Shown: piece after piece, positions 12,386-37,189 of the stretch
Position numbering within the stretch: position 1 is the stretch's first letter
Layout of the letters: each line of letters starts with the position of its first letter
Position numbers and translations under genes: made by a program
The notes under the pieces: model-generated
Told to the model about the DNA's origin: nothing
Database searches by the model: none
The model's input: only the letters and a program-made list of their open reading frames with translations
Source of the DNA: Cinnamomum chago
Taxonomy: Eukaryota > Streptophyta > Magnoliopsida > Laurales > Lauraceae
Assembly (NCBI GenBank): GCA_038049695.1
Contig: CP142457.1
Location: forward strand, 26,984,501 to 27,048,500
Direction of reading: 5' to 3'
Length of the DNA: 64,000 nt

Positions 12386-12397
12386 AGCAAGGAGGAG

Positions 12398-16163: not shown

Positions 16164-16576
16164 AAGCTATGCAAGAGCAAAGAAGCACCTCAGCAGCCAT
16201 TGTTGGTTCTACAGCGGGGAAGCCTTCTCCGGAGGAAGGCACGTTGCTGAAGGACAAGACGAGAGATCTATGAGCCTCTGGGTCGTAACAGCCAACAGCT
16301 ACCCATGGAAGGTGCTTCTGGCATTGGACCGAGTCCGCCTTTCATGCATCCCAACTTCCATGTTGACGGGGTCAACACAGCAAATGTGGAGCTTCAGTTC
16401 ATTCCCAACCTTCTTGGAATGTCACCGATGCATCAAGACCATGGCAACAACCCTGAATCGAACAACCTCTACTCCTTGAGGAATGCTCCTGAAGAAGTGT
16501 TTCGTTGCAGCTAGGGGAAAGAGAACCCAAGAGGCAGTGTTCAGATTCCACATTTACCGTAGAAGACCAGAAATGA
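16164..16576 (+). pseudogene. NAL1: NAL1-like last exon, two frame changes
   Basis: The acceptor is TTCAACAG|AAGC. The first frame gives EAMQEQRSTSAAIVGSTAGK and on to LLKDKTR. A second frame then gives EPLGRNSQQLPMEG through ELQFIPNLLGMSPMHQD to SLRNAPEE. A third frame gives SLQLGEREPKRQCSDSTF and VEDQK before TGA at 16574-16576. All three blocks match the NAL1 C-terminus in order, so two single-base-scale frame changes lie in this exon (about 16250-16270 and 16490-16510). Sequence after the stop is NAL1 3' UTR, part of which is duplicated near 26.9 kb. Confidence 0.82.
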
Positions 16577-17315
16577 TTGGAATTTATGGGAACTGCCTGA
16601 TTGTTTTTTGGGTCATCTTTAAAAGGATTTCACATAGTATAATAGGAGCTGGTTTTGAGTCATGGAGCCAACTAGTATCAAAGCAAGCAGAACTGTAAAT
16701 TCCATGCCCTATGAACATCCATTACTTCTTGCTAATACTTGTCAGTCCGGTCATCAATCTTCTTGCTAATGTTTTAGTGATCATAGTTGTCATGTCATAG
16801 GAAGATTACTATAAAGGAAAATAGGAGTTTAGGATAGAAGTTGGTAGATTATCCTTGTTATTTATCCAAGTTCATTTTATTGTGCTTGTAAAACAGTCAA
16901 TGTTATTATCAACATTAAAATAAGCAGGCATTTACAAGCATTTTACCTGTACTACAAAATTCTTTTGTAGAGGAGAAATTATTTGCAAGGCATTTATGGA
17001 TTTTCATTCTGTGTATCCGATTTTAGCCACTTTGAGAAAGAAATTTCTTAGAGTTACTAGGAATTCAATTCCGTCAGGCAAAGGGGCCCTAGGAGTGTCT
17101 TTCTTGAGGTGTGTCTTTCTTAAGGTATAAGTTTCTGAAAATACTTTTCTAATATTGCTTTAGAGGGAAAATACTCTCATAAGGACAGTTTGCATAGGGG
17201 ACTTCCATTTGGACAGCCATGTACTGCCCACTTGTGTACTGAATGGATCATCAAAATCCCCACCCTGTATCCACACCGGTTCCATGGATTTGCACCAAAC
17301 TAAATTGAGTAGATT

Positions 17316-18383
17316 GTTGGATCGAGGGGTCAAATTTTTTTTAAAAAAAAGCCGTTAAACTTTGGAGTCTTGGGTCAAGGAATTAGGATAATCTAAAGGA
17401 CTTATATATGATTTCACATATCATTAGGTCACATTCAAATTGCTGGAGTAGAAGAGAGGAAGAAGAAGAAGAAAGGAGGGGGAAGGGTTTTGGCAGGGTA
17501 TAAAAAAAGATTGTGGCGATATCGCTGCCTAATAAACAGTTTTTAAAAAAAAAATTTGAAAAAGCCCCCTATGACCACTATGATGGATAAATATTTTGGG
17601 TCTCTTTTTTCTCCACCAAATCTAAGAGAGATTTCTGGTAAAATCCTCCGAGAGAAAATGAAGAAAAAGAATTTTTTTTGAAGAATAAATCAATAAAATA
17701 TGTCAAATTAAAGGATTAAAAATTGACCTATGGAGAAGGATCATTGACTTAAAAGTAAATTAAGTATTCTAACTAAGGGGAGATTATGCTAGAATTATAG
17801 TCTTAATATTTCCTATGGAATCCAAAGGTTGCCTGCGGAGTCTAAGAATCACCTAAAGCCTGAAAGTCATCTAGGGAATTTAAGTTTTATTTTAGAAACT
17901 CCCTTTCAATGCAAAAGATTTTGCATCTAGAAATAGCCTAGAATAGCTGTATATCTTGTGTTGATTGTGTAGTAGTGTGTGGTTAAAGTGTTGTAGAGAG
18001 ATCAAAAATTTTTGTGGAGGAAAGTATCATGAAATTTTGAAGTGAAATTTCTCATTTGATTTACAATAAAGATCTTTTCAGCCGTTGAGCCATAGATCCC
18101 TACACACACACTGTTTCTTTATATATAATTCTTTAACTATCCCTTCAAAATTTCTTGCCTTGGATCTTTGGCCTCGGCTTGGGCTGTGTGATAAGTTTGT
18201 GCAATAAAGTTTGCATGATTCAATTAAATCAACTCAATAGAGGAACATAGCACAGACCATTTTTTGTTTTTGTTGGGTTTTTTTTTTTTCCACACACTAT
18301 TTAACCGTTGTATATGCTTTCTGCATTTGCAAAGTTTAATTTAGTTGCACTCTTGGATTATTATTGAGCTACTAGGTCTTGGG
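17316..18383. other. Block present only in duplication copy 1
   Basis: Copy 2 runs straight from GAGTAGATT to TTGAGCCAGC at 28727-28743, whereas copy 1 has about 1.07 kb between these landmarks. The block is AT-rich, with no frame and no clear terminal repeats. A stretch near 17940-18120 (TTTACAATAAAGATC, CAGCCGTTGAGCC) has the look of a retrotransposon LTR polyadenylation region, but I cannot assign it. It may equally be a deletion in copy 2. Confidence 0.4.
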
Positions 18384-18738
18384 TTGAGCCAGCAAACCAC
18401 TAGCTAATCAACAATCATTATAAGCTGGGCTTCATTTTATATTGGTTCAATCCAAGGGAGTGGAAAAGAAATATCTTAAAGAAAGTTACATATGTAACAT
18501 AAGAAGCACATGTTTCTTTTCTCATTTTCTATATATAGAACTAGAAAATCCACCATTAATTATTTAATTATCATCATACACAAACACCAAAACTGAAAGG
18601 ATATAAAGCATGTGAGGCACACATTTAGAAACTTTATTGCTTTTCTATTTTTAACAAGATAAAACGGAAATCACAAATTGCATACACACTAACTGAACCG
18701 TTGACATGGTTTGTTAATAAAACTAGAACGACATAAGA

Positions 18739-21069
18739 CTAAGAAGCTGGAAATGGAGGAACTTGTACATCCATATTCCCTTCTATCATCAAAATCACAT
18801 TCTTCATTGAAGGACGAAAAGCAGATTCACTTTGAATACACCACAAACCCACCATCACAATCCTCTCAAACTGTTTCTTTTCTACTTCTTCAGCATCAAA
18901 TAGCTTAGCAAGCTCCCCTGCTCGATAGCATTTATTGACCCAATCAGTTAGAATGATCTCGTCATCTTCGACCTCTAACTCGATGTTCCTCCTGCAACAT
19001 ACAATCTCCAGCAGTACAATCCCAAAGCTGTATATATCTACCTTTACTGATATTGGTTTGTTTTGGTACCATTCAGGGGCCAGGTACCCTCTTGTTCCTC
19101 TGGGTCCTGTGAATGTTCTTGTTTGATTCGGCGTCAATAGCTTCGCCAGCCCAAAGTCAGAGATTTTTGCCGTCCAAAACTCATCGATGAGTATGTTTTG
19201 TGGCTTTATGTCACAGTGGATGATATGGGGCTCACAATCTTCATATAGATAGAGTATCCCCCTGGCAACTTCTAATACAATTCTCATCCTATCACTCCAA
19301 GGAAGGTGTCTTTCAGCCCCCCTGAAGATAAAATCCGCAAGCGAACCATTGCTCATGTACTCGTACACCAAAAGCCTATTGAAACCCTCATTGCAGATGC
19401 CAATTAAGCGCACCAAGTTCCTGTGATGGGTTCTCCCGATAGCCCTCATCTCCATCTGAAACTCCCTTTCTCCTTCCTCCACCACTTTCTCCAACTTCTT
19501 CACTGCGACAGTTCTCTCATTGTTGGATAAGGCCCCTTTATAGACAGTACCAAAAGAGCCACGACCAAGTACCTGATTGAAGCCATTTGTAGCCGCGGCC
19601 AGCTCGTTATAAGAAAATGACCGCAGAACAATGTCTTCTGTCGTACCAAGTTTCTCCTCACATGACTTTACATGCGTGAACAAACCACGTCTTAAAATTA
19701 TGTAACCAAACACTGCCATAGTAATGCCAGAGCATATTGTGAGAATGGCACCAATCACTAAAATCATGATCGATGTCTTGGAAATGGAGGAGGAATGTTT
19801 TTCTCTTGCCGAATCTCGATTAGCCAACTTGAGAAAAAGCACACTTGAAATTGAGTTATCTCTAGTTCTTTGCCCGTACCTTAGTGGAAACTTGAGTTTG
19901 TAACAAACACCAGAACTTGACAGTGCAGCCACACAATTAGAATCGGTTAAACAAGCCTCCTTACAATCTTCTTTCTCCATGTTCTGTAATGAAGAATAGT
20001 AATCAGCTTTAAACCGAGTGTTCTCAAGGGAGACAATTGTGGGAGTCATGCTCTTCTCTTCAACGCTTCCAAAGCCAGGGTCTCCCCATCTCATTTGGCA
20101 TCCCTCAGACGTTTCACTGGAGCTCGTATAATTAGAGCCAGGGAGACAAGTGCAGTCTAATTCTTCACCCACCATGCAATAGCTGTTGATTCCACAGATA
20201 CCGTTAACTGAACATTTGTCCTGGAAGGATTGCCATTTCAACTCCGCTGTAGTGTAATTGTTCTTCCGCATACTATGTGAATACAACCGAAAGATCCCAT
20301 CTTGGTCGAGAGTAGCACGGTAAATTACCAAAGTGTCCTTGGAAGAAGGCCATCCATCCGTTAAATTCCGCGAAATTGTGTCATTCTCCCTGGCTAAGTA
20401 CATGTGGCCGTTGTCATCTAAATTTAACTTGAAGAAGTCTCCCTCGTAGTCTGAATTGATTGTCCAGTAGGAACTGGAATCATCATCAGCAGGGGTCAGT
20501 GAAAGGCTGTTTCCGTGATTCAAGGAGAGTCTGAACCTTCCAATTGTGTGGTTGGTTCTCGACACCCATGAAGACAACCAATTCTTCCCTGTATTTGGTA
20601 AGAGAGACTGGCCTGATAAAATGGTGTCTGTGGGATAATAGAAGCTTTGCCAGAGGATTTCTGAATTAGTACCGTAGAGAACAAAATTGCCATTGTCGAA
20701 CATGGAACCAAAGGAAATGATCTTATCATTAGTAAACGGCCTGGCTAGGACGCCTTCGCCTATAAACATGAGTCTGCCCTCCTTCGTAAGGCCCAAACTG
20801 GCATGGGAAGGGACAAGTGGGTCGGTGTCGTATGTCGTCCAGACCACTGTAAAGTTTGGAGATCCATCTAATAACCAGATCCCAACAGCAAAGTCCCGAC
20901 CTTGTGGGTAGAATCCAAAGGCAAAATGCCCTGAAGGGGAGAGCCAACAGGTGGAGTTCCCTGTTGGGTATAGATAAGAGCCCAAGCTTATGTTTCGGTA
21001 AAGTGTTGATTGAGATCTCTCTACAATACCAAACGCAAAGAGGAACACAGCCCTAATGGTAGTTGCCAT
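18739..21069 (-). CDS. G-type lectin S-receptor-like Ser/Thr kinase (LECRK1-4 type), gene A
   Basis: An intronless gene of 776 residues, taking the ATG at 21069 (MATTIRAVFLFAFG); an in-frame ATG 16 codons upstream would put a charged run before the signal peptide. Layout: signal peptide about 1-21; B-lectin domain about 28-150; EGF-like module (CSVNGICGINSYC); PAN-like Cys-rich region (CKEACLTDSNC); membrane segment about 433-458; kinase about 498-775. The kinase has LGRGSFGTVYKG, the ATP-anchoring Lys in VAVKKL, HCDIKPQN and DFGLAK. HCD in place of HRD makes it a non-RD kinase, common among immune receptors. Usual LEYLHED reads LYLYEDC here. The N-terminus matches the fragment at 31735-32158 almost exactly, while the kinase matches gene B, so the gene may be a recombinant. 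Family membership is firm; the ligand is unknown. Confidence 0.92.
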   Translation of the reverse strand: MATTIRAVFLFAFGIVERSQSTLYRNISLGSYLYPTGNSTCWLSPSGHFAFGFYPQGRDFAVGIWLLDGSPNFTVVWTTYDTDPLVPSHASLGLTKEGRLMFIGEGVLARPFTNDKIISFGSMFDNGNFVLYGTNSEILWQSFYYPTDTILSGQSLLPNTGKNWLSSWVSRTNHTIGRFRLSLNHGNSLSLTPADDDSSSYWTINSDYEGDFFKLNLDDNGHMYLARENDTISRNLTDGWPSSKDTLVIYRATLDQDGIFRLYSHSMRKNNYTTAELKWQSFQDKCSVNGICGINSYCMVGEELDCTCLPGSNYTSSSETSEGCQMRWGDPGFGSVEEKSMTPTIVSLENTRFKADYYSSLQNMEKEDCKEACLTDSNCVAALSSSGVCYKLKFPLRYGQRTRDNSISSVLFLKLANRDSAREKHSSSISKTSIMILVIGAILTICSGITMAVFGYIILRRGLFTHVKSCEEKLGTTEDIVLRSFSYNELAAATNGFNQVLGRGSFGTVYKGALSNNERTVAVKKLEKVVEEGEREFQMEMRAIGRTHHRNLVRLIGICNEGFNRLLVYEYMSNGSLADFIFRGAERHLPWSDRMRIVLEVARGILYLYEDCEPHIIHCDIKPQNILIDEFWTAKISDFGLAKLLTPNQTRTFTGPRGTRGYLAPEWYQNKPISVKVDIYSFGIVLLEIVCCRRNIELEVEDDEIILTDWVNKCYRAGELAKLFDAEEVEKKQFERIVMVGLWCIQSESAFRPSMKNVILMIEGNMDVQVPPFPAS

Positions 21070-21117
21070 CTCAATCTCAATCTCAATCTCATGTATGTGA
21101 ATTGTGAACCAAAGCAT

Positions 21118-21836
21118 TGATTTTGTAGGGGTAGCTCCTCAAGAAAGTTCGGTGCAATCAGGACGAAAATGAATGAATATTAAATCATTATTTAAAAAAA
21201 AAAAGTCTAAATCTAAATCAAAACCACTTAAAATAACTATTTATTAATTTGGCCGGCTAAAGTGGCATCAGTGCTCAACAGTGGAACCGACCGGCCCCTG
21301 TTGAAATTGAAATAGGATACATTCTCATAATGGAATCGGGATCTCTCAAGGGATTTGACCGTGGGGCTGCTCGAATTATGATCATGCGAGGCCCAGTGCA
21401 AATGGGCTACACGTTTCGGAGTACGTACGACGTGACGTGCAAGTGGAAGACAAGCTTTCATGACGTACTACTTGCTAGTGGAAGGCCGGCTTTCGTGACT
21501 TGGATTTTCTTCTTGTCACCTTTATATCCATCGGTCTTTTTGCGGGACGAAGACGATCGAGTGAGTATCATCGATGTGGTTGCCCTGCTAATTTAGGATT
21601 TTTTAGGATTTTGAATTTTGGATATACTCGATGTGGCTCATCTGTGAGAGATCCAAGTCAATAAATAATAAATAATCTTATCGTGGGTCAATTTTAAATA
21701 TATATATATATATATATATCAAAACCATTAAAGATTAGTCTGCCCAAGTGACTTGATGATGGGCCAAATTACACACAAATCTGAATTTTGTATCACGGTC
21801 AGATTTCCAACAGTTACATTCACCACACTTGTATAT
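21118..21836. other. Upstream region of kinase gene A
   Basis: Holds the presumed promoter on the minus strand. A block at 21240-21600 is conserved at 33365-33720. There are short frames on both strands and a TA microsatellite near 21702-21719. No single TATA element could be chosen. Confidence 0.4.
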
Positions 21837-22165
21837 TTTTCACAGGAAGGAGATACATTGTGCTGGGAGGGACATGTTACTTCCCTTTAAATAACGTGAA
21901 AGATATGGATAGATATAGAGGGCTTCTAAATACACTACTAAATACACTAGCAAATGGCTATGGGCAAATTATAAAAAGGGGTATACGAAGTGGATGTTAT
22001 CGAAGCATTAGCTGAATCATGTGAGAAGAGAAGGGAATGAAGTAGCTCATAAATTAGCAAAGCAAGCCCAATATGTGAATGATATGGTAGTTTCGTGGCA
22101 CTCCACCCATACCTAATTAAGCAGTATGTAAGTGTTGATGCGATGTTGGATTCTTAATAAAAATT
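21837..22165 (+). pseudogene. RNase H-like (reverse-transcriptase-associated type) remnant, copy 1
   Basis: Codons near 22015-22110 read HVRREGNEVAHKLAKQAQYV, the C-terminal signature of plant RNase H-like domains (usual form REGN.VAH.LAK.A). The paralogous stretch at 34170-34460 retains a longer open run ending in a stop. It is probably the tail of a degraded LINE or a captured RNase H domain. Stops and shifts break it upstream. Confidence 0.5.
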
Positions 22166-23612
22166 TAGAGACTTCTTATAAAAGAAAAAAAAAACCCACA
22201 GAATCGTTCATACAATAAATGATTGTGTGAAATGACATTTTTACATCTTCTTTTTTAAAAAAAAAAGAAAAGAAAAAAGAAAAAAGAAAAAAAAAAAGCA
22301 ATAAAGAGGATATCACATGGAATCTTGCTTTCCCAAAGATGCAAGGAAAAGGACGTTTCAAGAGCTAGAAAAAAGGTGAATATAAGCAACATTCTATTGG
22401 TGTAGGATCTTTTACCATTGAGTATTAATTATGCCATTTCCTCGAAATGTAGGATATCACATAGTATGAAGGCAAAATTTTCATTTTCACACCTCATTTA
22501 TTATATCAACCATTATGCGGGGATTTTTAAAATAACTAATACATAGGCAAAATTTAAGTCTTGCAGCACACTACCGTCAAAACACCTTATAGGGTCTGTT
22601 TGTCCAAACACCTTTACATCCGAAATGGGATGCGAACAAGCCGGTAGATTTTTCTCCTTGCTTGGTGCAGCACTGAAACCCCTACACTTTCTGCCTTCTT
22701 AGTTCTTACATTGTGTTTCCTCGATAGAAAGGATCTGAATTTCTCATCTAACAAATAGGAAATCCAAAGCCGTGGATGTGGAAACTCGGTTTCCTCTTCC
22801 ACGGCTCTGCACAAACAGACCCATAAAGTCTCACCTTTTCATCTTGCAAAGCAGTGTTTCAGTCAACTGAGTCATATACAACTGATGAATGTGTTTCACA
22901 TGCTCCAAGCATGGATTTTGTTGTATATCGAGTAGATTAGAAGGAGTAATTTACAGGAAAGGCCTTCTCTATCTAAAAAGGGCATGTTACTTTAGAAGAA
23001 CTGAGAGATTTCTTGTTTTGGAGAATTCTGAAAATTTTAATAGCTACTCACTAAAGTAGAATTCCAAATGCCCAACCCGCCTCTAGCATTTGAAATGTTG
23101 GAATTATAGGAATTCATAAGGGTAAAAGTGTCTTTTCATGTGGTTTGAGAGTTTGAATTCTCGCAACAAACAGTGCATTTGAAATGCTCAAGGGATAAGA
23201 TGTCACATCATGTCATAAATCCCCAACAAACCCAAATCCCTGTCTCAAAAATTCCTTTAGCCAAACAGGCCCAAAAGTGTTCTCTTTTTCGTTTTGGTGG
23301 TGCAAAGGCCCATCATAACTCCAGAAGCAAATGACGAAAGGAAGACCATTTCACATGAAAACTTAGGGGAATTTTACCCTCTAACCTAGACAAATTATAG
23401 GTCAACGCAGTCAACTCCACAGTGGAGCTCACTTATTAAAAAAATATGAGCAACTCAAAATCAGCATTCTCACGGTGTATAGGATGTCCTTAAAATGCAT
23501 TTCAAGAAGAGTTGGCCAAACCATTAGCTTGACCATAAAATGAATTAGTGATTAATAAATATTTTTTATCACATTATTCATCATTTGGCTGATTTCACAG
23601 TGGATCCAACTT
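22166..23612. other. Intergenic, no gene seen
   Basis: AT-rich, with an A/G homopurine run near 22255-22300. It is duplicated at 34461-35898. I see no credible gene. Confidence 0.4.
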
Positions 23613-24690
23613 TTCATCATCATCATCATCAAAGTCGCGTCCCAATTATGTTCGGGTCAGCTACATAAATTATGTTTCTCCATTTCGATCTATCTTTGGG
23701 CAGATCTTTAGATAAGTTACACTTCTTCATATTTATTTTTACTATTTTTTACTATATCCATCCACGTCCTTTTTGGCCTACCCCTTCTCTTTAGCTGACT
23801 AACAACTTTCAAAGCTAGACTTTTCCTTACCGGTACTATTGTCGGCCTACGTTGGACATGTCGAAACCATCTCAAACGGGTTTCTCTAATTTTATTCCCC
23901 TTATTACTACCCCTAAATGCTCTAAAAAATGTTCATTTCTAATTTTATCCTCCCTAGTTTAATCATGCATCTACCTCAACATTCTCGTATCTGCTACATC
24001 CATTTTGTGTATATGTTGCTTCTTGATTGGCCAACAATCTGCTTCATAGGTCATAGCTGGTCTAATCGTTATTCTGTAAGATTCTTCGTTTGATCTTGTT
24101 GGCATTTATTAGTCACAAAGCACTCTAAAAGCAACTCTCCACTTCAACCATCCCGCTTTTATCATATTTTTTACATCTTCATCAATCTCCCCATCCTTAC
24201 TAATTGTAGAGCCAAGAAAACAAAAAGACTCACTTTGTGGTATTTCATGGTCTTCAATTTTCATAACAGTTTCAGCGCTTTCTACATGCCCATTGAAGTT
24301 ACAATCCATAAATGTAGTCTTTGTACGGCTTATTTTAAAGCCTTTAGTTTCTAAAACTTCCCGCCATCTCTCAAGTAATGCATTCACGTCATCTCTTGAT
24401 TTATCTACAAATACTATATCATTTGAAAATAACATATACCAAGGTACCTCTTCTTAAATATGAACAATTAACTCATCCATAATCAGTGCAAAGAGATAAG
24501 GGCTTAGGCTAATCATTGATGCAAGCCTATGGTCACTAAGAACTCTCATGTCTCTCAATAAGTAGTTCTCAACACTCGTTACTGCTCTCTCATACATGTA
24601 TTTAATAATTCCAATAGCCCTTTATTTAAAACTCATTAAATTAAATCTCTAGGTACCTTGTCGTGGGTTTTCCCCTCGTCACGCGTACTC
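23613..24690 (-). mobile_element. RTE-type LINE fragment, copy 1
   Basis: On the minus strand, codons at 24109-24435 read NDIVFVDKSRDDVNALLERW and then GFKISRTKTTFMDC and FLGSTISKDGEIDEDVKNMI. These match the region after the catalytic Asp pair of plant RTE reverse transcriptases. The 3' end is a (CAT)n tract at 23613-23629, as RTE elements have simple-repeat tails. It is 5'-truncated and interrupted by several stops and shifts. The duplicate lies at 35899-36960. Confidence 0.75.
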
Positions 24691-24903
24691 GAACTTTTAT
24701 TAGAGTAAAATTTTAGGAGATTGAATAAACAGTAAGGCCTTTTTGAACTGCTAAAATTTGTAAAATAGAAGGCCCCAATGTGGTGTTTCACTTCTTCAAC
24801 GTAGGACTTTCAGAAGCTCTTGGTTTTCAATTCCACACTCTCTCTTCAGGGGATAGGAATTGGTGCAATTCAAAGCATGTCCACGTCATTAAAAAAGGCA
24901 TGT

Positions 24904-25170
24904 TGAGAGCATGGCTCCTTACTAAGTGGTAAGGCATGGCGGTTCTCACTAGGCCGCCAAGGGTTCGAACCCTAAGTACATCACCTCTTTCCGCGTGTGC
25001 AGGCTCCCTTCCCACTTATGTTGGCTTTCTTCTCACATGTGAGCCCCTCTTTTCCCACGTGAGTATGCTGTCTTTATGTATGTGTGGCCTCTCTTTGGAC
25101 CCAGCCCAGTTCGCTAGGACACCAAAACTAAAAGGCGTGTCAAAGATCAACCCCAAGAAAAAAAACGGAT
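24904..25170 (+). mobile_element. tRNA-derived SINE, copy 1
   Basis: The head reads like a tRNA: an A-box region TGGCTCCTTACTAAGTGGTA and a B box GGGTTCGAACCC about 45 bases later. A pyrimidine-rich body and an A-rich tail (AAGAAAAAAAAC) follow. The paralog at 37190-37440 keeps the same parts. It differs from the SINE family at 5965 and 33950. No target duplication is obvious. Confidence 0.65.
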
Positions 25171-26125
25171 AATAGTACTACCAAACTTCAAAACTGATAA
25201 GATAGTTGGTTGAACACATGGATTCGGGCCAGTTTGGCAACTCTACTAATAGAGTCAAGTGATGTAAAGTTGATTTTGAAGAAAGAATAAAATATAAGTG
25301 GGTTATGACAATATTTTATTTTTTAGTTGTTTGTTCTAGAATCTTTTTGACTTTTTGTATGAAAAGTTGAGTTTTTTTGTATTTTGTGGATAATGGTAGT
25401 TGTTTTTTGACTTTTGTTGAAAAAAGATGGAGAGAGTTTTGAATTAAAGTGCTTTTTATGTGACATCTTGTCTGAAAAATAGAGGCTTTATTTGATTTTT
25501 ACTATGCTCGTAAAGTGTCAAACTAGTTAGGGTGTGTTTGGTAACGGCCACAGAAGACACGGCACCACTGTCCTACCACTCTAGGTAGGAAGTCTGGATC
25601 CAATCTATCAAGGAAAAACACACCTAAAAAAGTGCTCTCGGTGTGGCTAGGCCCGTTTCCATGGAATATGGCGCTGCACAAACAATTCCTTACTGTGAAA
25701 ACCAAGCCCGCGTTAGGGTCCCACATCTTCTTCTTCAATTCATATTCCACAAATCCACCGCCAGAAGACACGACTAGGAGGATCAGACAATTAGAGTAAA
25801 TCCAAGGATTGAAACAATTGTGGACACGCTTGAACCTCCACCGTCAAAGTCCACAAAATGACGGGAATTTAAAATAAAATTAAAAAAAAGTACATGTAGA
25901 GACAGAAATGCCATCAGCAGTGAGGATGGATTTCCTCTTCTCGCCAAGAAAGCCGTTGATGATATCTCCTTGCTAGAGCAAAGAAGCAACAAGCAAGCAT
26001 GAAGGAAAAAGGTCAAAAATATATTTGGATGGACACATCACACATGGTTCCAATTCCACCAAAATTCAAATAAACCTTCCTTCAAATAAAAATATTGTAA
26101 AAGGTTCAACCCGTAGCACATCTTT
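25171..26125. other. Intergenic, no gene seen
   Basis: Short frames only (for example near 25523-26016, minus). Its duplicate at 37441-38415 does not conserve them in length, so they are unlikely to be coding. Confidence 0.4.
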
Positions 26126-26129
26126 CACT

Positions 26130-26371
26130 GCAAAATTCTGACTATAGTTGGTCGGATGCATCTATCTCTTTGTGATGACTACCCTAAAAGGCACTAAAGT
26201 ACGATTGGTATTCTACGCTTCCTTGAAACTCCATTCTAAGTTGGTACATGCTCGAGATGTTCCTTTTGATAATTTTCAGGAATGGTTGTGTAGTTTGGAT
26301 CATCCTTTGTAAGTTATTTTTTCTTTAATTAATAGATATTTGATTTATCAAAAAACTATAAAAAAAAAAAC
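26130..26371 (+). mobile_element. L1-type LINE 3' end fragment, copy 1
   Basis: Codons read FQEWLCSLDHPL before a stop, followed by an AT-rich tail ending ATCAAAAAACTATAAAAAAAAAA. This layout is that of the end of a plant L1 second frame and its poly-A tail. The duplicate at 38410-38665 has a longer A run. Confidence 0.5.
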
Positions 26372-26429
26372 ATATTCCCAATATCTGATCCACTGATGGG
26401 AGTTGGACAGGAAGAATGAATGGATTTGT

Positions 26430-26886
26430 GTCAATTGGACAATAGATACGATCTTACTTCAAGGTCTGAAATAGAAAATCACAGTGAATTACTTAAAATC
26501 ATCAAATCAATGAACACAAGTACAAACATCAAAGTGCAATATTCAAATCCTAAATCCTAAATCCATAGCGTCGACAATATCAATTTATTTACAAATAAGT
26601 ACAAGTCTACATAACATCAGAACCAACAATTTCCTTTTGAATAGAGCCACCAGAAATCACTATGTTCCACATTTATGTACAAACGTAACATACAGAGAGC
26701 CTCCCAACCTATCACACGACCACACATTCCTTCAGTGTTACCTGTCGCTGTAGGGTTCACACCTTAACCAATGCAATGATATCCAGATAATAGAGAAAGG
26801 AGGATAAGTTGTAGAAGCAGCAAAGTCTTTCATACCTATCTACATTATGTGTAGGGCTATCTAACACAGAACGCAAATGCTTATCT
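26430..26886. repeat. Duplicated copy of the LCAT4 3' flank
   Basis: Matches 38700-39174, the sequence immediately downstream of the LCAT4 stop codon, nearly base for base (for example GATACGATCTTACTTCAAG and ACAGAGAGCCTCCCAACC). It ends GCTTATCT, after which NAL1 3' UTR sequence starts. It therefore marks the right edge of the duplicated unit. Confidence 0.88.
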
Positions 26887-27169
26887 TTAAAGGGATTTCA
26901 TATAATATAATAGGAGCTGGTTTGGGTCATGGAGCCAACTAGTATCAATGGAAGCAGAACTGTAAATTCCATGCCCTATGAACATCCATTAGCAATACGT
27001 ACATTATATGGTTTTGCTGTCAGCAATGAGCAAAGGCCACAGACCCTCCCAAACACTTCCATTGTCTGCATAATGATTTTGCATGTTTTAGTTATCATAG
27101 TTGTCATGTTGTCATAGGAAGATTACTATAAAGGAAAATAGGAGTTTAGGATAGAAGTTGGTTGATTAT

Positions 27170-27669
27170 CAGGCCCGGCCCTGGACAGGGGCTGTAAGTG
27201 CCCTTGCCCAGGGCCCATTTTCCAGAGAGGGGGGGGGGGGGGGGGGGGGGGGGGCCCAAAATCCAGAGTGAGGCTTTGTTGACTTGGCATTTGGCAGTCC
27301 TTTCTAACTCCAGGTCCTTTTTATTACTTGTTTGGATTAGTGACTTCAATGGGCCTGGAATTGGGTTTTTTCTTTTTCCCTGGATCTGAGATTCGAACTC
27401 AGATGCCCATCTTCAGCCCTTCACCTGTTCTTCTCATCTGTTAGTGGGACCCACCAATGATTTTTTATTCCCCATATATGATGCTTAAATTCTGGTATGA
27501 TTTCTCTTTTTTCTATTTTTTTTTTCAAATAGTTATACTTGGGCATCATCAACCCATTGCCAATTTTTCATATCAGTGGGGCCCACCAATGATATTATCA
27601 TATATGATCGCTGAAGAGGCCTAACTTTTACTCTTGCCCTGTGCCCGGAAAAATTCAGAACCGGCCCTG
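27170..27669. mobile_element. Non-autonomous hAT transposon, 500 bp
   Basis: The left end CAGGCCCGGCCCTGGAC and the right end ...ACCGGCCCTG form short inverted termini of the CAGGGCCGG type known in plant hAT elements. A perfect 8-base target duplication TTGATTAT flanks it (27162-27169 and 27670-27677). The corresponding site in copy 1 near 16850 has no insert. The interior has a run of about 26 G's (27229-27254) and no transposase frame. Confidence 0.88.
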
Positions 27670-27789
27670 TTGATTATCATTGCTATTTATCTAAGTTCAT
27701 CTTCTTGTGCTTGTAAAACAGTCAATGTAATTATCAACATAAAAATAAGCAGGCTTTTACAAGCATTTTACTTGTACTACAAAATTCTT

Positions 27790-28415
27790 CTGATTTGCCT
27801 TTGTTGTCGTCCTGAAACTCTTTGAGCATGATTATTTATTTAGCATACAATGAAAATAGAAAATATTCACTTGCGCACTGTGCATCCAGAATGTCCTAGA
27901 AGCGGGACCCACTTTTGAGTATCCGTGACACGTGGTCTTAGATGCGCAGGTCAATATTTTCCCAGCAAAAATATGATACACAATACCTTTGGATATATTT
28001 CTGATTGATGGTTCATAAGTATGACTTAAAAATTCAGGCAATCAAATTGAAGACGTCAAAAGGGTAGTTGTGCATATGTTTGGGCACAGTACAATGTTCT
28101 TTGAAAAGTGCAGTGGCAAAAATTTGGTATTTATATAGTTGCTTTTGATATAACGTTTAAATTTACCATATCTAATATGATTTTATAGTTTAGTGACTGT
28201 TTATTTCATGGGATTGTGAATAAATAAGAATTCTAAGAAATATATTTCTAGAAGTGGCGGCTAAAACTTGAAGAAATAAATTTGAATATCCACATATGGC
28301 TATAAAATAATCTCCCCTTCAATGGAAATTAAACTAAAGGAGGATGAGAAGTGATTTTGTAGAGTGATGACTTGGTATTCATTTTCCATCTAAGCTTAAG
28401 CCTTAATTCATTTTC
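27790..28415. other. Block present only in duplication copy 2
   Basis: In copy 1, the sequence jumps from CAAAATTCTT (about 16965) directly to the AGAGGAGAAATT landmark. Copy 2 has about 620 bp between these points. No frame or terminal repeat is seen. It was either gained in copy 2 or lost in copy 1. Confidence 0.4.
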
Positions 28416-29119
28416 CTTAGAGGGGAAATTATTTGGAAGGCATTTATGGATTTTCATCTGTGTTTCGATTTTAGCCACTTTGAGAAATATATTTTTTAGA
28501 GTTCCTAGGAATTCAATTACGTCAGGCGAAGGGGCCCTAGGAGTGTCTTTCTTGAGGTTTAAGTTTCTGAAAATACTTTTCTAATATTGTTTTAGAGGGA
28601 AAATACTCTCCTAAGGACAGTTTGCATGGGGGACAGCCATGTACTGCCCACTTGTGTACTGAATGGATCATCAAAATCCCCACCCTATATCCCCACCAGG
28701 TCCAATGGATTTGCACCAATCTAAATGGAGTAGATTTTTGAGCCAGCAAACCACTAGCTAATCAACGATCATTTTATGCTGGGCTTCATTTTATATTCGA
28801 GACAGCTCAATGTGAAGCATTGCACTTGGTTCAATCCAAGTAAGTGGAAAAGAAACATCTTAAAGAAAGTTACATACGTAACATATGAAGCACATGTATC
28901 TTTTCTCTTTTTCTATAGAACTAGAAAATCCACCATTAACATCATACACAAACACCAACAGTGAAATAATATAAAGCATGTGGGGCACACATTTAGACAC
29001 TTTATTGCTTTTCTATTTTTAACAAAGTAGGGAGAAAGAGACAAATGGAAAGCACAAATTGCATACACACTAACTGAACCGTTGACATGGTTCGTTAAAA
29101 AAACTAGAACGACTTAAGA
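28416..29119. repeat. 3' flank of kinase gene B, duplicate of copy 1 sequence
   Basis: Matches 16975-17315 and 18384-18738 in order. It includes the presumed kinase 3' UTR. No separate gene is seen. Confidence 0.6.
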
Positions 29120-31468
29120 CTAAGAAGCTGGAAATGGAGGAACCTGAACATCCATATTCCCTTCTATCATCAAAATCACATTCTTCATTGAAGGACGAAA
29201 AGCAGGTTCACTTTGAATACACCACAAACCCACCATCACAACCCTCTCAAACTGTTTCTTTTCTACTTCTTCACCATGAAATAGCTTAGCAAGCTCCCCT
29301 GCTCGATAGCACTTACTGATCCAATCAGTTAGAATGATCTCGTCATCTTCGACCTCTAACTCGATGTTCCTCCTGCAACATACAATCTCCAGCAATACAA
29401 TCCCAAAGCTGTATATATCTGCCTTTACTGATATTGGTTTGTTTTGGTACCATTCTGGGGCCAGGTACCCTCTTGTCCCTCTAGGTCCTGTGAATGTTCT
29501 TGTTTGATTCGGCGTCAACAGCTTCGCCAGCCCAAAGTCAGAGATTTTTGCAGTCCAAAACTCATCGATGAGTATGTTATGTGGCTTTATGTCGCAGTGG
29601 ATGATATGGGGCTCACAATCTTCATGTAGATAGAGTATCCCCCTAGCAACTTCTAATATAATTCTCACCCTGTCACTCCAAAGAGGCCGACCTTCACCCC
29701 TGAAGATGAAATCCGCGAGCGAACCATTACTCATGTATTCATATGCCAAAAGCCTATTGAAACCCTCATTGCAGAAGCCAATCAAGCGCACCAAGTTCCT
29801 GTGATGGGTTCTCCCGATAGCCCTCATCTCCATCTGGAACTCCCTTTCTCCTTCTTCCACCACTTTCTCAAGCCTCTTAACAGCGATAGTTCTCTCATTG
29901 TTGGATAAGGCCCCTTTATAAACAGTACCAAAGGAGCCACGACCAAGTACCTGATTGAAGCCATTTGTAGCCACGGCAAGCTCGTTATAAGAAAATGACC
30001 GCAGAACAATGTCTTCTGTCGTACCAAGTTTCTCCTCACATGACTTTACATGCGCCCACATACCACGCCTTGAAATTAGGTAACCAAACACTGCCATAGT
30101 AATGCCAGAGCATATTGTGAGAATGGCACCAATTACTAAAATCATGATCGATGTCTTGGAAATGGAGGAGGTATGTTTTTCTCCTACCCAATCTCGATTA
30201 GCCAACTTGACAAAAAGCACAATTGAAATTAATTTACCTTTCCTTTTTTGCCCATACCTTAGTGGAAAATTGAGTTTGGAACAACTATTTGCAAATTTTC
30301 CGTACTGTATAGCCACACAATTAGCATCGGTTAAACAAGCCTCCTTACAATCTTCTTCATTCTCCATGCCCTGTAATAAAGAATAGTAATCAGCTTTAAA
30401 CCAAGTGTTCTGAAGGGTGACAATTGCGGGAGTCATTCTCTTCTCTTCAACGCTTCCAAAGCTACGGTTACCCCATCTCATTTCGCATCCCGCGTACCTT
30501 TCACTGGAGTTTATATAATTAAAACCAGGGAGACATGTGCAATCTATTTGTTCACCCATGATGCAATAGCTGTTGATTCCACAGATACCATTGACTGAAC
30601 ATCTGTCCTCTAGGGATTGCCATATGACCTCCGGTGTAGAAGAGTTATTGTTCTTCCGCATGCTATGCGAATACAACCCAAAAATCCCATCTTGGTCGAG
30701 AGTTGCACGATAAATTACTGAAGTCTGATTCGAAGAAGGCCATCCATCTGTTAAATTCAACGAAATTGTGTCATTCTCCCTGGCCATGTACATGTGGCCG
30801 TTGTCATCTAAATTTAACTTGAAGAAGTCTCCATCGTTGTATGAATATTCGCGCCAGTAGGAACTGGAATCATCATCAGCAGGGGTCAGTGAAAGGCCGT
30901 CCCGATCCAAGGAGAGTCTGAACCTTCCAATTGTGTGGTTGGTTCTCGACACACTTGAAGACAACAAACTTGTCCTTGAAGGCAGAATAAGAGACTGGCC
31001 TGCTAAAATGGTGTCTGTGGGATAATCGAAGCTTTGCCAGACCATTTTTGAATCAGAACTGTAGAGAACAAAATTGCCATTGTCGAATATGGAAGCAGAG
31101 TAAATGAGCTCATCCAGTCCATCTCCAGCAATCGACTTGGGTTCGCTGCCTTCGGCTGTTAACTCGAGTTTGCCATCCTTCGTAAGAGCCAAAGTGGCAT
31201 TGGCAGGGACAAATGGGTCGTCGGTGTTTGCTGTCCAGACCACTGTCTTGTTTGGAGATCCGTGATCTAATAACCAGACCCCAACAGCAAAGCCCTGGCC
31301 TTCTTGGTAGAACCCAAAGGCGAAATTCCCAGAAGGGGAACTCCAATAGGTGCGGTTCCCTGTTGGGTATAGATAAGAGCCCGAGCTTATGTTTTGGGAA
31401 AGTGTAGCTTGGGATCTCTCAACAATAGCAAACGTAAAGAGGAACACGACCCAAATAGTAGGTGCCAT
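29120..31468 (-). CDS. G-type lectin S-receptor-like Ser/Thr kinase (LECRK1-4 type), gene B
   Basis: Intronless, 782 residues, starting MAPTIWVVFLFTFAIVERSQ (signal peptide about 1-21). Domains in order: B-lectin about 28-155, with SYLYPTGNRTYWSSPSGNFA near its start; S-locus-type region; EGF-like CSVNGICGINSYC; PAN-like CKEACLTDANC; membrane segment about 440-465; kinase about 505-782. Kinase landmarks are LGRGSFGTVYKG, Lys531 in IAVKRL, Asp626 in HCDIKPHN, Asp644 in DFGLAK and APEW. HCD marks a non-RD kinase. Length is typical of the family. It is intact and therefore probably functional, with gene A as its closest local paralog. The two differ most in the lectin region and least in the kinase, which suits diversified ligand sensing with shared signalling. 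The ligand is unknown. Confidence 0.93.
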   Translation of the reverse strand: MAPTIWVVFLFTFAIVERSQATLSQNISSGSYLYPTGNRTYWSSPSGNFAFGFYQEGQGFAVGVWLLDHGSPNKTVVWTANTDDPFVPANATLALTKDGKLELTAEGSEPKSIAGDGLDELIYSASIFDNGNFVLYSSDSKMVWQSFDYPTDTILAGQSLILPSRTSLLSSSVSRTNHTIGRFRLSLDRDGLSLTPADDDSSSYWREYSYNDGDFFKLNLDDNGHMYMARENDTISLNLTDGWPSSNQTSVIYRATLDQDGIFGLYSHSMRKNNNSSTPEVIWQSLEDRCSVNGICGINSYCIMGEQIDCTCLPGFNYINSSERYAGCEMRWGNRSFGSVEEKRMTPAIVTLQNTWFKADYYSLLQGMENEEDCKEACLTDANCVAIQYGKFANSCSKLNFPLRYGQKRKGKLISIVLFVKLANRDWVGEKHTSSISKTSIMILVIGAILTICSGITMAVFGYLISRRGMWAHVKSCEEKLGTTEDIVLRSFSYNELAVATNGFNQVLGRGSFGTVYKGALSNNERTIAVKRLEKVVEEGEREFQMEMRAIGRTHHRNLVRLIGFCNEGFNRLLAYEYMSNGSLADFIFRGEGRPLWSDRVRIILEVARGILYLHEDCEPHIIHCDIKPHNILIDEFWTAKISDFGLAKLLTPNQTRTFTGPRGTRGYLAPEWYQNKPISVKADIYSFGIVLLEIVCCRRNIELEVEDDEIILTDWISKCYRAGELAKLFHGEEVEKKQFERVVMVGLWCIQSEPAFRPSMKNVILMIEGNMDVQVPPFPAS

Positions 31469-31734
31469 CTCATGTGTGTGAGAACAATAGAGTTGAGCAT
31501 TGATTTATAATAGGACCTCCTCTTCTTGATTGGCCACGGATGAGTGTAGTACCGTGGAAAGTTCAATGCAAGCACGAGGAAAATTAATGGATCCTATATC
31601 ACAGTATATTTAAAAGAAATTTAAAAAGTGGGCCCACGGTGAAGTTCGGGGAGTGGGATGCTCACAGATCAATCCAAATTAATATCCCTACACTACAATT
31701 GGTTGGGCTCATGATCTCACTTATTAAGTGTTGA
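31469..31734. promoter_or_regulatory. Upstream region of kinase gene B
   Basis: Short spacer between the start codon of gene B and the severed fragment of a third kinase gene. It is paralogous to 32159-32232 plus 33248 onward (shared GTTGAGCATTGATTT and GGCCACGGATGAG) and provides an empty site for the Harbinger-like element. No core promoter element was chosen with confidence. Confidence 0.4.
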
Positions 31735-32158
31735 TTTGCCGGAGGATTTCTGAATTAGTACCGTAGAGAACAAAATTGCCATTGTCGAACATGGAACCAA
31801 AGGAAATGATCTTATCATTAGTAAACGGCCTGGCTAGGACGCCTTCGCCTATAAACATGAGTCTGCCCTCCTTCGGAAGGCCCAAACTGGCATGGGAAGG
31901 GACAAGTGGGTCGGTGTAGTATGTCGTCCAGACCACTGTAAAGTTTGGAGATCCATCTAATAACCAGATCCCAACAGCAAAGTCCCGACCTTGTGGGTTG
32001 AATCCAAAGGCAAAATGCCCTGAAGGGGAAAGCCAACAGGTGGAGTTCCCTGTTGGGTATAGATAAAAGCCCAAGCTTATGTTTCGGTAAAGTGTTGATT
32101 GAGATCTCTCAACAATAGCAAACGCAAAGAGAAACACAGCCCAAATGGTAGGTGCCAT
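31735..32158 (-). pseudogene. Kinase gene A-like N-terminal fragment
   Basis: Starts MAPTIWAVFLFAFAIVERSQ at 32158 and matches gene A through the signal peptide and B-lectin domain with few substitutions (for example YDTDP to YYTDP). At residue 139 homology stops: the gene A text TTTGCCAGAGG aligns as TTTGCCGGAGG, and beyond it lies the gene B upstream spacer, giving a short foreign tail and a stop. No EGF-like, PAN-like, membrane or kinase part is present. It is the remains of a third tandem gene cut by recombination. If translated it would be a secreted lectin domain, which is only a possibility. Confidence 0.85.
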
Positions 32159-32232
32159 CTCAATCTCATGTATGTGAATTGTGAACCAAGAGAGTTGAGC
32201 ATTGATTTTGTAGGGGTAGCTCCTCTTCTTTA

Positions 32233-33247
32233 GGGCACGTTTGGCAAATTGGCAGGAATCCCCTAGTTAGAGGTTTTTTTGATCCATCGGAACCAAGCCA
32301 TCCTCAAAGAACATTTCCTAAGGATAATTTCAAGTTTGGCAGAAGAGAAGAATCATGGAGTCATATGCATTATGTGATTCAACAATCATAAGTTTTTAGT
32401 CAATTTCTCATAATCCATGAAATATCAAGGGCTGATCTTTCACCCCATGACCAGTTTTGGCTCTTCAGATATTCTTAACGGTTCAGATCGTGCAAAGGGG
32501 GCCACATAAATAAAAAATAATATTTTAGAGTATGGACATTTTTGCAAATATCTCAAAATTCATCATGGATCTACTGTTGAAATTTAGGCCTTTAGTTGTG
32601 TTTGGTCTCCTCTAAATTATTTACGATTCAGATGGTGACTTCGAGGCCCACAAAAATTAGAAAAATGAAAAAAAAAAACGTACTGCCAAATAATCCTCTT
32701 TTTTTTTTTTTACACTGGGCCATATCAACGATCAGAATTGTTTTGATATTTTCTCATGATCCATGCTGAATCATATTCCCAAACTGGACCCCATAGCCAT
32801 ACTGGAACACATAGCCATTGTGGGTCTTTTTTAGAGATTGAACGGTTCAGATATCGCAAATGGGCCCCATAGAAGTCCATATTTAATGATCTAATGGCCT
32901 ACACGTTTTTGCAAATATCTCAAGTTATAGATGGAATCAACGGCTGATTTTTCTGGACCTTGTTAACACTATTACCGGTTTAGATCTTGATTGTGGGTCC
33001 TATATAAACCAATAAATGAAAAAAATCGGTGACCCATGTGAACCCGCCATACCACTATATCAACTCGTTTCCTTCGTTCCGCAGAGTTTCATAATTTAAT
33101 GGGGGCGGGTCGGAGTTGAAATGGTCGTACGGATGGAACGAAGAAAGCCTCCTAATCGTTTTCTACAGTCCACCAAACGTGGGCTTTCCATGCAAGCGAG
33201 GAAAACCAATAGGAAATCTGATGCAATCACCGTTGCCAAACGTCCCC
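32233..33247. mobile_element. PIF/Harbinger-like non-coding element, 1015 bp
   Basis: Inverted ends GGGCACGTTTGGCAA (left) and GGGGACGTTTGGCAA (right, reversed) are flanked by TTA on both sides (32230-32232 and 33248-33250). The paralogous gene B promoter has the uninterrupted sequence CCTCTTCTTGATTGGCCACGG, which serves as an empty site. The interior has no transposase frame but repeats phrases such as ACGGTTCAGAT and GCAAATATCTCA. Confidence 0.82.
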
Positions 33248-33949
33248 TTAGTGGCCACGGATGAGTAGTACCTCAGAAAGTTCGGTGCAATCATGACGAA
33301 AGTGAATGAATATTAAATCATTATTAAAAAAAAAGTCCAAATCTAAATCAAAACCACTTAAAATAACTATTTATTAATTTGGCCGGCTAAAGTGGCATTA
33401 GTGCTCAACAGTGGAACCGACTGGCCCCTGTTGAAATTGAAATAGGATATATTCTCATAACGGAATCGGGATCTCTCAAGGGATTTGACCGTGGGGCTTG
33501 ATGAATTATGATCATGCGAGGCCCAGTGCAAATGGGCTACACGTTTCGGTGTACGTACGACGTGTCGTGCAAGTGGAAGACAAGCTTTCAGGATGTACTA
33601 CTTGCTAGTGGAAGGCCGGCCTTCGTGACTTGGATTTTCTTCTCGTCACCTTTATATCCATCGGTCTTTTGCGGGACGAAGACGATCAAGTGAGTATCAT
33701 CGATGTGGTTGCCCTGCTAATTTAGGATTTTTTAGGATTTTGGATATACTAGATGTGGCTCATCTGTGAGAGATCCAAGTCAATAAATAATAAATAATCT
33801 TACCGTGGGTCCATTTAAAAAAAAAAATCAAAACCATTAAAGATTAGTCTGCCCAAGTGACTTGATGATGGCCCAAATTACACGCAAATCTGAATTTTGT
33901 ATCACGGTCAGATTTCCAACAGTTACATTCACCACACTTGTATATTATT
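33248..33949. repeat. Upstream block shared with copy 1
   Basis: Matches 21140-21836, including GGCCGGCTAAAGTGGCAT and GGATTTGACCGTGGGGCT. No gene is assigned. Confidence 0.55.
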
Positions 33950-34139
33950 ATTATTTTTTTTTTTTTTTTTTTTTTTGCTATCGGAGGGTTCCAAACCCTT
34001 TGGGCTGGACTAATCCCTCCGGGCCCAGAGGGAAGCCGGGTAAAATCCCCTGTAGCCCCAGTGTGGTAGTGCAGTTTTGAACCCACAACCTCCAGATGCA
34101 AACTGTGGTCCTAAGCCAACTGAGCTACCCCTTGGGGTT
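33950..34139 (-). mobile_element. tRNA-derived SINE, post-duplication insertion
   Basis: Flanked by a 16-base direct repeat ACACTTGTATATTATT (33934-33949 and 34140-34155). Copy 1 has the matching empty site near 21825-21845 (ACACTTGTATATTTTTCAC). The poly-A tail appears as a long T run at the left end. Read in reverse, the head is GGGGTAGCTCAGTTGGCTTA, a textbook A box. Same family as 5965-6177. Confidence 0.88.
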
Positions 34140-34155
34140 ACACTTGTATATTATT

Positions 34156-34465
34156 CACAGGAAGGAGATACATTGTGCTGGGAGGGACATGTTACTTCCC
34201 TTTAAATAACGTGAAAGATTTGGATAGATATAGAGGGCTTCTAATTACACTAGCAAATGGCCATGGGCAAATTATAAAAAGGGGTATACGAAGCGGATGA
34301 TATCGAAGCATTGGCTGAATCATGTGGGAATAGAAGGGAATGAAGTAGCTCATAAATTAGCAAAGCATGCCCAATATGTGAATGATATGATAGTTTCGTG
34401 GCACTCCAACCCAGACCTAATTAAGCAGTATGTAAATGTTGATGCGATGTTGGATTCTTAATAAA
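34156..34465 (+). pseudogene. RNase H-like remnant, copy 2
   Basis: An open run reads KHWLNHVGIEGNEVAHKLAK and then HAQYVNDMIVSWHSNPDLIK, ending at a TAA near 34458. This is the better-preserved paralog of 21837-22165. The EGN.VAHKLAK signature fits plant RNase H-like domains. Whether it came from a LINE or a cellular gene cannot be told. Confidence 0.5.
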
Positions 34466-35898
34466 AATTTAGAGAGACTTCTTATAAAAATCGTTCATAC
34501 AATAAACGATTGTGTGAAATGACATTTTTACATCTTTTTTAAAAAAAAAAAAAAGAAAAGAAAAGAAAAAAGAAAAAAAAGCAATAAAGAGGATATCACA
34601 TGGAATCTTGCTTTCCCAAAGATGCAAGGAAAATGACGTTTCAAGAGCTAGAAAAAAGGCAAATATAAGCAACATTCTATTGGTGTAGGATATCTTACCA
34701 GTGAGTATTATGCCATTTCCTATAAATGTGGGATATCACATAGTATGAAGGCAAAATTTTCATTTTCACACCTCATTTATTATATTAACCATTATGCGGG
34801 GATTTTTAAAATAACTGACGTACAAAGGCAAAAATTTAAGTCTTGGGGCACACTACCGTTTAAACACCTTATAGGGTCTGTTTGTGCAAACACCTTTACA
34901 TCCGAAATGGGATGCGAACAACCCAGTAGATTTTTCTCCTTGTTTGGTGCAGTGCTAAAACCCCTACACTTTCTGCCTTCTTAGTTCTTACATTGTGTTT
35001 CCTCGATAGAAAGGATCTGAATTTCTCATCTAACCAATAGGAAATCCAAAGCCGCGGATGTGGAAACTCGGTTTACTCTTCCACGGCTCTGCACAAAAAG
35101 ACCAATAAAGTCTCACGTTTTCATCTTGCAAAGTAGTGTTTCAATCAACTGAGTCATATACAACTGATGAATGTGTTTCACATGCTCCAAGCATGGATTC
35201 TGTTGTATATCGAGTAGATTAGAAGGAGTAATTTAGAGGATAGGCCTTCTCTATAAAAAAAAGGGCATGTTAGTTTAGAAGAACTGAGAGATTTCTTGTT
35301 TTGGAGAATTCTGAAAATTTTAAAAGATTCTCCCTAAAGTAGAATTCCAGGTGCCCAATCCGCCTCTAGCATTTGAAATGTTGGAATTAAAGGAATTCAT
35401 AAGGATAAAAGTGTCTTTTTATGTGGTTTGAGATTTTGAATTCTTGCAACAAACAGTGCATTTAAAATGCTCAAGAGATAAGATGTCGTATCATGTTATA
35501 AATCCTCAACAAATCCAAATCCGTGTCTTAGAAATTCCTTTAGCCAAACAGGCCCAAAAGTGTTCTCTTTTTCGTTTTGGTGGTGCAAAGGCCCGTCATA
35601 ACTCCAGAAGCAAATGACGAAAGGAAGACCATTTCACATGAAAACTTAGGGGAATTTTACCCTCTAACCTAGACAAATTATAGGTCAACGCAGTCAACTC
35701 CACAATGGAGCTCACTTATTAAAAAAATATGAACAACTCAAAATGAGCATACTCACGGTGTATAGGATGTCCTTAAAATGCATTTCAAGAAGAGTTGGCC
35801 AAACCATTAGCTCGACCATAAAATGAATGAGTGATTAATAAATATTTTTTATCACATTATTCATCATTTGGCTGATTTCACAGTGGAATCAACTTTTC
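34466..35898. other. Intergenic, duplicate of 22166-23612, no gene seen
   Basis: Same landmarks as copy 1 with scattered substitutions and small indels. No credible gene. Confidence 0.4.
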
Positions 35899-36960
35899 AC
35901 CATCATCATCATCAAAGCCGTGTCCCAATTATGTCCGGGTCAACTACATAAATTATGTTTCTCCATTCTGATCTATCTTTAGGCAGATCTTTAGATAAGT
36001 TACACTTCTTCATATTTATTTTTACTATTTTTTACTATATCCATCCACATCCTTTTTCGCCTACCCCTTCTCTTTGGCTAATCAACAACTTTCAAAGCTA
36101 GACTTTTCCTTACCGGTACTGTTGTCGGCCTACGTTGGACATGTCAAAACCATCTCAAACAGGTTTCTCTAATTTTATTCCCCTTATTACTACCCCTAAA
36201 TGCTCTAAAAAATGTTCATTTCTAATTTTATCCTCCCTAGTTTAATCATGCATCTACCTCAACATTCTCATCTCTGCTACGTCCATTTTGTGTATATGTT
36301 GCTTCTTGATTGGCCAACAATCTGCTTCATAGGTCATAGCTGGTCTAATCGTTGTTCTATAAGATTTTTCGTTTGATCTTGTTGGCATTTATTAGTCACA
36401 AAGCACTCTAAAAGCAACTCTCCACTTCAACCATCCCGCTTTTATCATATTTTTTACATCTTCATCAATCTCCCCATCCTTACTAATTGTAGAGCCAAGG
36501 AAATGAAAAGACTCACTTTGTGGTATTTCATGGTCTTCAATTCTCATAGCAGTTTCAACTCTTTCTACATGCCCATTTAAGTTACAATCCATAAATGTTG
36601 TCTTTGTACGGCTTATTTTAAAGCATTTAGTTTCTAAAACCTCCCGCCATCTCTCAAATAATGCATTCACGTCATCTCTTGATTTATCTACAAATACTAT
36701 ATCATTTGAAATAACATATACCAAGGTACCTCTTCTTAAATATGAATAGTTAATTCATTCATAATCAGTGCAAAGAGATAAGGGCTTAGGCTAATCATTG
36801 ATACAAGCCTATGGTCACTAAGAACTCTCATATCTCTCAATAAGTAGTTCTTACACTCGTTACTGCTCTCTCATACATGTCTTTAATAATTCCAATAGCC
36901 CTTTATTTAAAACTCATTAAATTAAATCTCTAGGTACCTTGTCGTGAGTTTTTCCCTCTT
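35899..36960 (-). mobile_element. RTE-type LINE fragment, copy 2
   Basis: Duplicate of 23613-24690. Minus-strand codons at 36392-36724 read SNDIVFVDKSRDDVNALFER and FLGSTISKDGEIDEDVKNMI. Since both copies share the truncation and the CAT tail, the insertion predates the segmental duplication. Confidence 0.75.
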
Positions 36961-37189
36961 CACTCGAACTTTTATTAGAGTAAAATTTTAGGAGATTGAA
37001 TAAACAGTAAGGCCTTTTTGAACTGCTAAAATTTGTAAAATAGAAGGCCCCAATGTGGTGTTTCACTTCTTCAACGTAGGACTTTCAAAAGCTCTTGGGT
37101 TTTCAATTCCACACTCTCTCTTCAGGGTTAGGAATTGGTGCAATTCAAAGCATGTCCACGCCATTAAAAAAGGCATGTTGAGAGCATGG

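Follow-up and report, generated by a model that had tools for sequence, protein, structure and literature searches.

An apparent direct tandem duplication between convergent NAL1-type and LCAT4-type genes of Cinnamomum chago, joined at sites without long homology

Several described systems resemble the duplicated locus analysed here. In a rice survey, non-homologous recombination was credited with 52.98% of the CNVs and NAHR with 0.48%, and the 27 non-co-linear cases in that survey comprised 14 ascribed to end joining, 12 to transposons and one to crossing over (PMC4812662). As in the present case, the breakpoints of these rice gene copy-number changes share few bases and lack long homology, and the proportions reported imply that a no-homology junction such as ours is ordinary. 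The 27 rice cases are, however, non-co-linear copies, whereas ours is an old direct tandem of ~10-12 kb that contains transposon-like insertions (PMC4812662). Fork stalling and template switching likewise generates direct duplications with microhomology junctions, but the junction studied here has no visible templated insert or second switch (PMC4544587). Reversed-ends transposition of maize Ac also produces direct tandem copies, and these are similar in size (from 8,157 bp upwards); in contrast, the present junction is a 4-base overlap instead of an 8-bp target duplication, and no transposon was seen where the copies start (PMC3744419). Finally, copy-number variation in tandem receptor-kinase arrays involves gains and losses, as at our locus, but the present unit is delimited by the 3' ends of flanking genes and the kinase that survives differs between the copies (PMC4544587).

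Here, we analyse a window of 64,000 nucleotides (contig CP142457.1, positions 26,984,501 to 27,048,500 of the forward strand; no N, G+C 38.3%) that contains a direct tandem duplication with a clean junction. The sites joined lack long homology, and one copy carries transposon-like insertions at sites that are empty in the other. The class of mechanism is already known, and the event is of an ordinary kind. Among the papers listed when the literature was searched for the three genes jointly, there was no mention of 'LCAT4' or 'narrow leaf 1'.

Structure of the duplicated interval and its junction

The duplication lies between two convergent genes. The one on the plus strand is of the NAL1 type: a frame upstream of its last exon (13971-14546) matches Pfam Nal1_C (E=3.4e-91), and all nine distinct sequences among the PDB matches listed for the NAL1-type frame are NARROW LEAF 1 chains. 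A Copia-type retrotransposon is present at 8414-12837, upstream of the NAL1 C-terminal frame. Its 440-bp end repeats are 99.8% identical, so that its insertion was probably recent, and a single frame of 1,160 aa contains gag, integrase and reverse transcriptase domains, of which the integrase match is below the Pfam cut-off. For the gene on the minus strand, a motif scan gave 12 frames from 39190 to 62941, and we interpret 8 of these as LCAT-like and arranged in the order expected. The name LCAT4 is presumptive, being based on motifs, and a Pfam search with two of the LCAT4-type frames, including that of the last exon, gave no match. With its motif-bearing frames in order, this gene seems to be stretched over ~23.7 kb (39190-62941).

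Self-comparison of the window revealed two direct tandem copies, A and B, of the sequence that lies between these genes at their 3' ends (Table 1). The similarity is far above chance, self-BLAST giving E = 0 over 5,104 aligned columns at 94.2% identity. Direct matches link 16615-16853 to 26883-27170 and 21825-26886 to 34140-39174; the chain between them is interrupted by insertions, and the diagonals end at 16615, 26883-26886 and 39174, the three points at which the initial annotation expected a dot-plot to show them ending.

Table 1. Positions in the window of the duplicated copies, their breakpoints, and the genes and insertions discussed in the text
Feature	Position	Strand	Remarks
NAL1-type gene, last exon	16251..16514	+	Last exon by inference; frame opens at 16251, start unfixed; stop TAG 16512-16514; frame ends ...APEEVFRCS, then stop
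Left breakpoint ATCT	16615..16618	+	100 bp past the NAL1-type stop codon
Copy A	16615..26886	+	Self-BLAST and MAFFT
Copy A-only block	17320..18383		1,064 bp; no clear target duplication
KA, intact B-lectin/S-locus/PAN receptor kinase, copy A	18739..21138	-	799 aa stop to stop
Junction ATCT	26883..26886	+	LCAT4-side sequence leftwards, NAL1-side sequence rightwards
Copy B	26883..39174	+	Self-BLAST and MAFFT
hAT-like insertion, copy B only	27170..27669		8-bp target duplication TTGATTAT
Copy B-only block	27793..28417		625 bp; no clear target duplication
K1, intact B-lectin/S-locus receptor kinase, copy B	29120..31504	-	794 aa stop to stop; Pfam
Spacer 5' of K1	31528..31734		207 bp; two partial matches
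K2, broken N-terminal remnant, copy B	31724..32266	-	Kinase-like to 31735, ~141 codons
Insertion of ~1.04 kb, copy B only	32226..33264		Inverted-repeat sequence near ends; imperfect 10-bp flanking repeat
SINE-like insertion, copy B only	33950..34139	-	16-bp target duplication, poly-T start, tRNA-like head
Right breakpoint ATCT	39171..39174	+	12 bp from the LCAT4-type stop codon
LCAT4-type gene, last-exon frame	39187..39660	-	Stop TGA 39189-39187

The initial annotation had also described a readable junction, and this description stands: the strings TCATCTTTAAAAGG, CTTATCTTTAAAGGG and CTTATCTAGCCTTC are located at 16613, 26880 and 39168, respectively, ATCT is common to the left breakpoint, the junction and the right breakpoint, where the diagonals stop, and the identities of the flanks switch sides. 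To the left of ATCT, 98 of 100 bases of the junction are those of the LCAT4 side and 28 of 100 those of the NAL1 side. To its right, an ungapped comparison gives 38 of 60 bases identical to the NAL1 side and 17 of 100 identical to the LCAT4 side; when one gap is permitted, the junction and the NAL1 side agree at 103 of 109 aligned bases. With ATCT counted, the junction is identical to the LCAT4 side in an unbroken run of 29 bases towards the left, and to the NAL1 side in one of 9 bases towards the right.

Both breakpoints are positioned just beyond the stop codons of the convergent genes, and the unit corresponds to nearly the entire intergenic interval. The nearness of the breakpoints to the stops may be due to chance, to breakage near gene ends or to an artefact, and we offer no further account of it.

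Joining of sites that share few bases

The shared ATCT had been taken as microhomology that points to end joining or template switching, and not to crossing over between repeats. The exclusion of repeats fared well, whereas the four bases proved to be weak evidence for a pathway. Among 200,000 random position pairs from the window, at least 4 shared bases at the join were found in 2.1% (P = 0.021), and at least 3 in 6.3%. Because matches of at least 4 bases arise at this frequency, the overlap exceeds chance only weakly, and as microhomology it is no more than suggestive. One more base agrees past a mismatch, and mismatch-tolerant microhomology in polymerase-theta joining is described in a recent review (PMC13015775).

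That the outer sites share no long homology is firmer evidence than the 4-bp overlap. The NAL1 and LCAT4 sites are identical at 29 of 100 positions on the left and at 24 of 100 on the right, and blastn of their 500-bp neighbourhoods detected exact matches of 10-12 bp only, all of them away from the breakpoints and with E values of 0.03 or more. Repeat-mediated crossing over is therefore disfavoured. No repeats were found inside either outer site taken separately, and those inside the junction site were one direct and one inverted pair of 11 nt (91% each), which we take as chance. Unequal crossing over (NAHR) was not supported, there being no long repeat at the outer breakpoints and the junction, although such a repeat could have been lost subsequently. 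A Helitron was also considered; the CTRR ending of these elements is not seen at the right end before the join. The sequence does not distinguish between blunt joining, end joining and template switching.

Unequal content and divergence of the two copies

Copy B contains three insertions (hAT-like, SINE-like and one of ~1.04 kb), at each of which copy A has a single near-identical site. The target duplications of the hAT-like and the SINE-like insertions are exact. Both classes are presumptive, the hAT-like one being assigned from its ends and target duplication. Within the hAT-like insertion, there is a run of 26 Gs (27229-27254), 342 bases from the junction, which is the only run of G or C of 9 or more in the window. 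The insertions show separate histories, whether of copies or of haplotypes. Three related frames (24109-24453, 36392-36754 and 58730-59068) look like fragments of non-LTR reverse transcriptases; the first, the only one submitted to Pfam, matched RVT_1 with E = 0.00063, below the cut-off. Each copy contains one such fragment, so that these two would derive from one present before the duplication; the third lies elsewhere. An Rfam search of the whole window at gathering thresholds gave no matches.

Divergence was determined block-wise, which superseded a first MAFFT alignment of the copies; there, three windows at 17019-18277 were 39-45% identical, values that we read as misaligned insertions. 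The NAL1 side shows 61 differences in 969 aligned noncoding sites when one non-matching block (16725-16768 versus 26992-27082) is omitted; in block L1, the divergence is 8/193 without the non-matching block and 35/238 with it. The omitted stretch is short, lies close to where each copy starts and was apparently replaced in one of the two. To the right of the kinase, 139 of 2659 noncoding sites differ (28/659 at 21141-21823 and 111/2000 at 21840-23878). The NAL1-side value is not significantly different from this total (p = 0.22), nor does it stand out against either part (p = 0.077 and p = 0.45, respectively).

Over 21840-26882, the copies differ at 191 of 4974 sites, but not evenly: the differences in consecutive 500-site windows number 21, 36, 29, 25, 18, 14, 20, 17 and 7, followed by 4 in the final 474 sites. 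These ten windows are non-uniform (chi-square 43.9, 9 df, p = 1.5e-6), with a rank correlation of -0.87, and the two at the LCAT4 end, with 11 differences in 974 sites, contrast with 180 in 4000 elsewhere in the region (p = 4e-8). Constraint on LCAT4 is not a ready cause of the low right end because the right end of copy A is not beside LCAT4; gene conversion between the copies would be the best reading.

The kinases have changed in another way. KA matches Pfam B_lectin, S_locus_glycop, PAN_3 and Pkinase, whereas a Pfam search with K2 gave no match. In the spacer 5' of K1, 71 columns match 33252-33320 at 77%, and 63 columns match 21143-21201, upstream of KA, at 75%. For the two intact kinases, KA and K1, Ks is 0.17 and Ka 0.11, while for KA and K2, Ks is 0.041 (4 of 101 synonymous sites) and Ka 0.028, K2 being nearer to the KA N-terminus than K1 is; for K1 and K2, the values are 0.135 and 0.233. 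The synonymous divergence of KA-K1 (76.8/506) is greater than that of KA-K2 (p = 0.0012), and the four-fold sites of KA-K1 (31/252) exceed both the noncoding value of 111/2000 (p = 0.00015) and the NAL1-side value of 61/969 (p = 0.0029). Over the first 160 alignment codons of KA-K1, Ka (0.21) is higher than Ks (0.13), while the kinase domain shows little amino-acid change. The 3' end of KA is near K1, with 16 mismatches in 450 sites across 19232-18783. A single change point in the KA-K1 silent differences was not significant (permutation p = 0.31). These differences are weakly heterogeneous (p = 0.034), and their longest silent-identical run is unremarkable (p = 0.15).

Judged by these divergences, KA and K1 look like older paralogs that predate the duplication; K2 appears to agree with the age of the flanks, and K1 would agree less well. 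As KA-K2 matches the flank age and KA-K1 exceeds it, the ancestral unit probably carried two kinases, of which each copy later shed a different part. The dating of KA and K1 as older than the duplication leans on KA-K2, with its 4 synonymous changes, and coding and noncoding rates may differ; moreover, the K1-K2 Ks is not far above the flanks. Alternatively, K1 may have arrived in copy B later from another locus.

Origin of the tandem copies

A single direct duplication of the NAL1-LCAT4 interval, as proposed in the initial annotation, accounts for the three sites. It does not account for what the copies now contain, because the full kinases look like older paralogs and copy B has a broken closer twin. 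Similarly, provided that the tandem duplication is genuine, the proposed ancestral order of NAL1, kinase unit and LCAT4 follows from it, whereas the content of the unit does not. We therefore favour a fuller model, which as a whole we hold to be likely. The interval between the convergent 3' ends would have been copied once, head to tail, when it already contained two receptor-kinase genes, one K1-type and one K2-type. A site just past the LCAT4-type stop would have been joined to one just past the NAL1-type stop, with the ATCT overlap and no long homology, presumably by microhomology-mediated end joining or replicative template switching. Copy A may then have retained one full kinase, with a K2-like N-terminus and a 3' end close to K1, and copy B may have retained K1 plus only the first part of K2, cut after ~141 codons. 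Gene conversion would afterwards have re-homogenised the LCAT4-side end.

Instead, the tandem might be a false heterotype duplication, an assembly artefact in which two diverged haplotypes of the same interval were placed one after the other although each chromosome carries it once. The ~6% noncoding divergence, the presence and absence of transposons and a divergence mostly over the receptor ectodomain also fit two haplotypes. Further points in favour of an artefact are the breakpoints, which directly follow the two stop codons and hence the end of conserved coding sequence, and the G run close to the junction. In one study, same-scaffold errors of this kind make up 7-24% of the false duplications in its older assemblies and, by its table, most of those in the newer ones; it also states that false copies are mostly separated by gaps, though sometimes linked by wrong gap filling (PMC9516828). 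The window, however, has no N, and the 4 bases shared by the ends were judged too few for an overlap join, so that the junction would have had to come from a read or from gap filling; such an artefact is, in our judgement, unlikely. Only a small chance is given to an inter-homolog event, by which, in a heterozygous or hybrid plant, two haplotypes that differed beforehand were joined end to end, so that the copies were never identical. It would produce uneven divergence without gene conversion and a KA-K1 divergence in excess of that of the flanks. Nevertheless, the closer relative of KA is the broken remnant in copy B, extra events are needed either way, and conversion is the simpler cause of the 1% right end. 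If it were true, one joining step at the 3' ends of the flanking genes would have brought two different receptor alleles onto the same chromosome.

It is very improbable that the copies arose by unequal crossing over between repeats or that a hAT element made them by reversed-ends transposition. The outer sites, which lack long homology, speak against the former. As to the latter, the hAT-like element starts 283 bases inside copy B, but it is internal, has its own 8-bp target duplication and corresponds to a single near-identical site in copy A, and by eye no transposon end is seen where either copy starts; such transposition has been shown to yield tandem copies from 8,157 bp upwards (PMC3744419). 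Which of the three sites is derived is not told by sequence alone, and this leaves room for a ready-made two-unit array inserted between the genes, with the outer sites new and the middle one old. It would then take chance for both outer ends to fall on unit boundaries and to have ATCT in common, and we regard such an insertion as hardly credible.

On the favoured model of one head-to-tail duplication without homology, a two-kinase ancestor, differential kinase loss and later conversion of the right end, the main appeal of this old event of a common type is the unequal change of the two copies since. Its junction, still legible after ~6% divergence, orients the event and is a usable marker for which plants share it. 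The receptor pair may pass for simple tandem twins and yet be older paralogs, which calls for caution when tandem receptor genes are dated from a single gene pair.
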